Source of the DNA: Halalkaliarchaeum desulfuricum
GTDB taxonomy: Archaea > Halobacteriota > Halobacteria > Halobacteriales > Haloferacaceae
Reading direction: 5' to 3'
Assembly (NCBI RefSeq): GCF_002952775.1
Contig: NZ_CP025066.1
Span: 2,108,001 to 2,172,000 of the forward strand
Length of the DNA stretch: 64,000 nucleotides
The position numbers and the translations under genes are program-made. Under the pieces are notes generated by a model. That model saw nothing but the letters and a program-made list of their open reading frames with translations, was not told the DNA's origin and ran no database searches. This document shows positions 32,759-33,715 of this stretch, piece by piece. Numbering within the stretch: the stretch's first letter is position 1; each line of letters begins with the position of its first letter.

Positions 32759-33084
32759 GTTGGGTGGTCCTTTCGGGAGTGTAAAAATCTATGTGTCCGT
32801 GTCGAGTGTGTATTCGTCGAACGTCGAACAGATCTACCGGCCGTTCGATGGCGGCCTCGAAATCTCTGCTCGGGAACGCCTTTGGTTGGCGTTCTTCGCC
32901 GGCGAGATCGAAGCCCGAACAGTTCTATGCGGGAGTGAATAAGCACCAGCAATGCCGTGTGGCTGTCGGCAATCAAATCCCAAAGTAACCATAGGTACTG
33001 CCCTGTGGTGGTCTCTGTCGTTTGCGGTCCCGATATCGTTGTGTCGGCGGTGGATTTATTAAATAAAAATGACATTATAACTGT
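32759..33084. other. Intergenic region between maeB and the VOC pseudogene
   Basis: 326 nt with the divergent promoters of maeB (about 32783-32791, minus) and of the VOC remnant (GATTTATTAAATAAAAATG at 33053-33071, plus). A stretch of about 60 codons is open on the plus strand from 32757 to 32942. Another on the minus strand has aromatic-rich, transposase-like composition near 32930-33020. Neither is long enough or recognisable enough to call a gene. Given the mobile element next door, degenerate insertion-sequence remains are possible. Confidence 0.4.
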
Positions 33085-33715
33085 ATGATTCCAGAAGACG
33101 TACCACAGTTAGACGTAACGATACCTGAGATAACGCAGGTGGCGTTCGTCGTCGAAGATTTGGATGACGGAATGAACCGGTTCGGGGGAATTCTAGGTGT
33201 CGACGAGTGGGACGTCTACCGGTTCGAACCACCTCGCCTGACGAACCGAACGTACCGCGGGGAGCCACACGATTACGGAGAATCGAGGAGAAAGCCCCGT
33301 GTTCAGCGCGGGGATGAATCCGACAACTGGGAATCAACCACCGGAAGTCAGATACCCGGAGTTTAATAATCGCGTGAAACCTAGGCATGAATACACCGAG
33401 GCGGTTCAGCCGCCCGAGTAAACGGATAATATCGGGATTCGGGAGTCTACGTCCGGAAGAATCCCTTTCGTGACCGCTGGATTCTCTGAACAGGTAACTC
33501 TGAATCCCATACCGGGGATAGGAGTAACGGCGGCTTGGCCCCGCCAGCAGTCCCGTCATGCCGACCGGACTGCAAACCTGAAAACTCCCAACTCAGCGGC
33601 GCAGTGCCGTGGGAATCTTCGCCCTTTAGGGCGGAGAGGAGGTCAATCGATGGCACTGGCGATTACAGACGTCGGTGGAACGATGCCCGAACCCGACCGA
33701 ACCTACACAGTCTGA
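33085..33715 (+). pseudogene. VOC (glyoxalase/bleomycin-resistance)-family protein, interrupted
   Basis: The first 65 codons (33085-33279) read as the start of a vicinal-oxygen-chelate domain (TQVAFVVEDLDDGMNRFGG, then VYRFEPPRLTNRTYRGEP). The frame is then lost in a non-coding insertion and resumes at 33650 with MALAITDVGG, which fits the next beta-strand of the same domain. This joins directly to MPEPDRTYTV and a stop at 33715, which looks like the usual C-terminus. The central ~60-70 residues of a normal VOC protein are therefore also gone. The gene carries both an insertion and an internal deletion and cannot make an active enzyme. A strong AT-rich promoter remains upstream. Confidence 0.7.
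33280..33649 (+). mobile_element. IS200/IS605-derived non-coding element (PATE/MITE-like)
   Basis: About 370 nt inserted in the VOC gene, without a transposase. It holds three hairpins of the kind found at ends of haloarchaeal IS200/IS605 (IS1341) elements: CCCCGTG-TTCAG-CGCGGGG (33295-33313), GGCGG-TTCAG-CCGCC (33400-33414) and CGCCC-TTTA-GGGCG (33620-33633). The last is followed by GGAGAGGAGGTCAA, a typical right-end tail. No flanking direct repeat is seen, as expected for this family. The middle reads like the degenerate 3' end of a tnpB gene. The overall picture matches palindrome-associated (PATE) elements; exact boundaries are uncertain by a few bases. Confidence 0.6.

Follow-up and report, generated by a model that had tools for sequence, protein, structure and literature searches.

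A VOC-family gene of Halalkaliarchaeum desulfuricum is interrupted by a 370-nt element without a transposase, and we propose that this element is probably a palindrome-associated transposable element (PATE) that constitutes a mobile, independently promoted omega-RNA gene, served in trans and inserted in a VOC gene that separately suffered an internal deletion. The window, that is, the whole stretch of DNA analyzed, comprises 64,000 nucleotides (contig NZ_CP025066.1, positions 2,108,001 to 2,172,000, forward strand), and coordinates given without a contig count from its first letter. The element is an insertion with a clean boundary, has a second copy and a family of relatives, contains a conserved box and an RNA structure with covariation, and lacks TnpB. 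The features concerned are the following.

33085-33276, + strand: VOC-family gene, first 64 codons (partial PF13669 match; homologues in relatives)
33273-33276, + strand: TTAC target site and presumed TnpB-adjacent motif, outside the element (found before most subfamily-A copies)
33277-33646, + strand: 370-nt transposase-less IS200/IS605-type element, a PATE (99% copy; empty-site match)
33295-33313, + strand: left-end hairpin CCCCGTGTTCAGCGCGGGG, conserved among family members and shared with two of the genome's tnpB-bearing elements
33362-33369, + strand: conserved TATA-like box (TTTAATAA), the element's own predicted promoter (isolated conserved block)
33393-33500, + strand: 5' RNA domain of TnpB-less members (model R1, 83.5 bits)
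33492-33637, + strand: omega-RNA core, homologue of Rfam sot0042 along the entire model (69.6 bits)
33535-33539, + strand: loop TTGGC, pairing with the terminal GTCAA as a pseudoknot (97.3% of cells paired)
33616-33637, + strand: right-end hairpin (7 of 9 pairs changed on both sides)
33642-33646, + strand: terminal motif GTCAA, the element's right boundary (family comparison, pairing)
33647-33666, + strand: predicted guide, the first ~20 nt of the flank, VOC coding sequence (expected from omega-RNA anatomy)
33647-33685, + strand: VOC codons 65-77 (SMALAITDVGGTM), direct continuation of codon 64 (alignments with orthologues)
33681-33685, + strand: deletion junction at a CGATG repeat, with ~84-90 codons gone (orthologue comparison)
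33686-33715, + strand: last 9 VOC codons (PEPDRTYTV) and stop (matches orthologue ends of the form ...MPEPDRTYP)

Reading and translating the sequence placed the broken VOC gene at 33085-33715, as the original prediction had it. Leaving out 33277-33646 puts codons 1-64 and the 22 codons of 33647-33715 in one frame of 86 aa, and its alignment with homologues runs straight across the junction (...HDY followed directly by SMALA...). Homologues of the joined product were found at 14 haloarchaeal loci; they mostly have 166-176 aa, and for the majority identity is 59-72%. The two pieces, as had been claimed, thus come from one VOC gene; the break that was predicted after codon 65 exists, but its true position is after codon 64. 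Taken separately, the first 64 codons match the start of Glyoxalase_4 (PF13669) with an E value of 7.6e-5 and 23.4 bits, below the curated Pfam cut-off of 27 because one third of the domain remains, and the assignment to the VOC family was made through the intact homologues. The weakness of this Pfam match would suit an account in which the pieces are unrelated and the 370 nt are ordinary intergenic DNA. That account is so improbable that we regard it as refuted: the pieces rejoin seamlessly to the 14 orthologues and align with the gene of Halorubrum salsamenti, and the insert has a 99% second copy.

The H. salsamenti gene is the closest orthologue found and is intact (175 aa, 89% amino acid identity over the 64 residues). 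Across the 77 codons that it shares with the remnant there are 41 synonymous and 7 non-synonymous differences, which argues that purifying selection acted on the VOC gene during most of its past and that the break is probably recent. Synteny with H. salsamenti is absent around the gene, and a VOC match was not found in a sister genome (G001), similarity to which begins abruptly at ~33733, just downstream of the remnant, with a different gene order upstream. A TATA-like TTTATTAAATA at 33055-33065, ~26 nt before the VOC ATG and recognized by eye only, is consistent with a leaderless promoter, in keeping with the upstream promoter that had been predicted. The VOC gene is an ordinary insertional pseudogene.

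The gene carries a second lesion. The later piece, described in the original prediction as 22 codons of the same domain, is indeed VOC sequence but actually consists of the 13 codons of SMALAITDVGGTM and the 9 C-terminal codons. In the window GGTM is followed directly by PEPDRTYTV, the C-terminus of the orthologues, most of which have ~84-90 residues between the two; an internal deletion had been correctly surmised, and its size underestimated at 60-70 residues. Since CGATG stands on both sides of the missing stretch in H. salsamenti and in a single copy in the window, at 33681-33685, a repeat-mediated in-frame deletion between 5-bp repeats appears to be the simplest account, and the deletion is best explained as an event separate from the insertion. 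Cutting by TnpB was also considered and may have been the cause, but the junction lies ~38 nt past the element's right end, outside the expected guide, so that an unrelated repeat-mediated deletion is simpler.

Comparison with haloarchaeal relatives, the check that had been proposed, supplied both intact VOC orthologues and the exact insertion boundary. The roughly 370 nt of hairpin-bearing DNA are exactly 370 nt, and their interpretation as a transposase-less insertion derived from IS200/IS605 is borne out by a clean empty-site match to the orthologues and by the second copy. The element lies directly behind TTAC, and the orthologue comparison shows neither a target duplication nor lost bases. 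Elsewhere in the same genome, a copy of 99% identity (G000:C1:1918322-1918692) lies outside any VOC gene and is preceded by CTCAC, not TTAC; this recurrence excludes chance as the origin of the insert and indicates that the element is mobile and has recently been active. The original prediction had counted the same 370 nt without a VOC gene elsewhere as evidence against itself. Such a copy was found, but what it shows is mobility. The phrase "hairpin-bearing non-coding DNA" was right about the hairpins and overlooked a conserved omega-RNA-like gene with a promoter-like box and a widespread family.

Several properties place the element among PATEs. Palindromes lie near both ends, the termini GGAG... 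and ...GTCAA do not form inverted repeats, a target-site duplication is absent, and 370 nt is too short for a transposase, with no match to TnpA or TnpB within the element; autonomous IS200/IS605 elements, in comparison, encode TnpA and/or TnpB. Insertion on the 3' side of a constant short target, which is not duplicated, is in line with IS200/IS605 behavior, from which the second copy and subfamily B (described below) deviate. Furthermore, two of the genome's tnpB elements (C1:162540-164027 and 1450224-1451709, with 428-aa TnpB frames) have a matching left end and likewise sit behind TTAC. The genome contains 3 TnpA and 7 TnpB matches in all, which are candidates for action in trans.

In the accessible text of Dyall-Smith et al. 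2011 (PMC3119063), PATEs of Haloquadratum walsbyi are transposase-free relatives of IS605 that share with our element the lack of terminal inverted repeats, the near-terminal palindromes, the absence of target duplication, a length too short for a transposase, and IS605-type ends. The likeness concerns these described features, and in that same portion of the source these PATEs are treated as non-coding repeats, without promoter, omega-RNA or guide. A PATE-like remnant has also been reported in Halanaerobium (PMC7290912). Separately, another repeat of the window's genome, with end CTGTCTCTTACCCATAACTCAAACTC and at least 338 bp identical, was found in just two copies (G000:C1:2015343-2015408 and G000:C1:2216615-2216688; loci L121 and L122), both of which lie in IS605-type left-end palindromes, reminiscent of the SMR repeats of Haloquadratum, which target PATEs.

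A search with the element found relatives in 48 of 170 genomes of the same family, and the 5'-domain model R1 matches 50 of 167 such genomes, spread over 17 of 28 genera. Forty related elements were retrieved with their flanks and compared with the window element. Most copies of subfamily A have TTAC at the left, GAGGA(T/G)GTCAA at the right and unrelated flanks, as expected for a mobile element whose guide comes from the 3' flank; the second copy (CTCAC) and a few others, whose left ends have shifted or been lost, depart from this pattern. Subfamily B (L076, L090, L092, L102 and L109) begins with CTATCTTT, ends with GTCAC, has a different left boundary and lacks TTAC. Most relatives have no TnpB within 1.5 kb, and in the flanked loci it is almost always missing. 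Where it is clearly present, at L053/L200 (one locus) and L066, it seems to belong to a neighboring element, and L183 has a weak partial match. A clear member lies on plasmid pNRC200 of the model organism Halobacterium salinarum NRC-1 (L180:1990-2367, corresponding to NC_002608.1:267920-268286), with no annotated gene on it.

Shorter forms were also observed. A ~50-nt terminal-only PATE in a tailed haloarchaeal virus (Halorubrum virus OP630575.1, ~16050; L179:1501-1549) has its left and right ends fused and its RNA part missing, and a similar ~50-nt copy lies behind TTAC in the window's genome (G000:C1, ~99177; L119:278-331). In a plasmid search, matches to the element outside the best hits included 21 Klebsiella and 10 Enterobacter plasmids.

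Between the left hairpin and the RNA, the 31 subfamily-A copies share almost nothing except a single TTTA/TTTTA block, which precedes the conserved start CCGAGGCGG, almost always by 32-35 nt. The same spacing recurs in most further copies found with the 5'-domain model and in the pNRC200 copy. This arrangement would fit an archaeal TATA box, with transcription starting ~26 nt downstream, close to where the conserved RNA begins.

The conserved RNA of the family is ~255 nt long and ends in the omega-RNA core. The element aligns to sot0042 (RF02656) with an E value of 2.4e-17; its 69.6 bits do not reach the gathering score of 88, and tnpB-linked copies of the same genome score 114-117 bits. We therefore call the core homologous to sot0042 without counting it as a member under the curated threshold. 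The same match is seen in 9 further copies of the family, as well as in tnpB elements. As in the tnpB (IS1341-type) omega-RNAs, or sotRNAs (RF02656; Picinato et al. 2025, PMC12558985), the core extends over the whole 174-position model, although its span of ~141-146 nt contrasts with roughly 160-187 nt in most high-scoring tnpB-linked loci. Haloarchaeal omega-RNAs have been described with a pseudoknot between the loop of the second hairpin and the terminal motif (PMC12558985), and the element has both this pseudoknot and the right-end hairpin characteristic of RF02656, with a predicted guide likewise placed in the 3' flank.

A consensus structure including the pseudoknot was evaluated on 22 representatives: 93.8% of cells are paired and 15 pairs are changed on both sides. 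The covariation score was 0.204; shuffles gave 0.097 +/- 0.008 (0 of 500), and slid controls did not exceed 0.087. Kinship among the sequences inflates covariation counts, so the slid controls and the change seen in subfamily B weigh most. That change is compensatory, TTGGC/GTCAA of subfamily A becoming GTGGC/GTCAC in subfamily B (U-A to G-C). A long-range GAC/GTC pairing given by RNAalifold was replaced by the TTGGC/GTCAA pseudoknot, which the subfamily-B change supports.

Unlike tnpB-linked omega-RNAs, the element overlaps no tnpB, has a TATA-like box and carries an extra 5' domain of ~110 nt. Model R1, built on the first ~110 nt of the RNA, was run on the window, on loci of its own genome and on 30 sot0042 loci of nine genomes. 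The 5' domain was not found at any of the 26 tested RNA loci linked to tnpB, and the other 4 of the 30 had the domain and no TnpB. These observations bear on whether the element is merely a decayed tnpB transposon or end-only MITE, its conservation reflecting end DNA needed by TnpA and not an RNA. We consider this quite unlikely. Its ends do resemble tnpB elements of the same genome, and Haloquadratum PATEs are described as arising from IS605-type elements by deletion of the core (PMC3119063), but the conserved 5' domain is missing from tnpB elements, and the family spreads over 17 genera, keeping its TATA-like box in place and showing internal covariation. In addition, the ~50-nt terminal-only copies show IS605 ends without the middle, and the RNA part is therefore not required for merely having such ends.

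The 5' domain is also at the center of the main rival to the guide reading. In an all-stem scan, GGGATTC of the 5' domain paired with GAATCCC of the core over 7 bp (96.8% paired, one compensatory change), in competition with a core helix, and the RNA could therefore differ in role from an ordinary guide. It might act as a decoy or regulator whose 5' domain pairs with the core and inactivates TnpB, protecting host or element; occurrence of the domain only where TnpB is absent agrees with this. We nevertheless judge such a role unlikely, as the pseudoknot, right-end hairpin and guide-adjacent terminal motif are all kept under covariation, which a decoy would need less.

The omega-RNA gene reading, which we prefer, may be outlined as follows. 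The element inserted behind TTAC after VOC codon 64, and would be moved by TnpA from another element acting on its ends with their subterminal hairpins. Its own promoter would make the ~255-nt RNA, which would run from the omega-RNA core into the 3' flank; the flank would become the guide, each insertion rewriting it. TnpB made elsewhere in the cell would load this RNA and cut element-free insertion sites, here an intact VOC allele on a sister chromosome, and repair would copy the element back. Transcription, TnpB loading, cutting and TnpA action in trans are steps that we infer from sequence, and guide use in trans has the least support. Haloarchaea are polyploid, and TnpB homing would therefore be useful on the chromosome. 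Homing by TnpB in multicopy plasmids was shown for complete IS200/605 elements (Mears et al. 2025, PMC11870625), and the route proposed here shares with it a guide made at the insertion site and the cutting of element-free copies; those elements carry their own TnpB, whereas here TnpB would come from another element.

A 489-bp PATE of Halorubrum virus HRTV-DL1 is very strongly transcribed in its 3' part, with a ~300-bp peak on nearly one strand only, and its authors suggested ncRNA activity (PMC10544981). We considered it as a relative of proven expression. In the deposited HRTV-DL1 record, however, a sot0042 match was not found and only a terminal-only copy (L179) was recovered, so its expression data are not transferable to our element and the case is an analogy, not a shown homologue. 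PATEs or MITEs with a TnpB guide RNA, and stand-alone omega-RNA PATEs, were not found in the literature searched, with most subscription papers outside its coverage. PATEs as such have been described before; an architecture of promoter plus RNA, with a 5' domain, was not found in that literature.

TnpB is the ancestor of Cas12 and is usually discussed with an omega-RNA from its own element. Beyond the single locus, we see an even chance that haloarchaea host a large, old family of protein-free mobile guide-RNA genes that use the TnpB and TnpA of others. In such a family, the specific 5' domain would replace the 5' part derived from tnpB, and a single TnpB might work with many guide genes, akin to a dispersed, self-copying guide array. 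If this is true, the persistence over 17 genera of a protein-free element that keeps only its ends, promoter and guide RNA would imply that TnpB serves, in trans, a community of parasitic guide genes. It would also offer a reason for the strong transcription and the retention of some PATEs.
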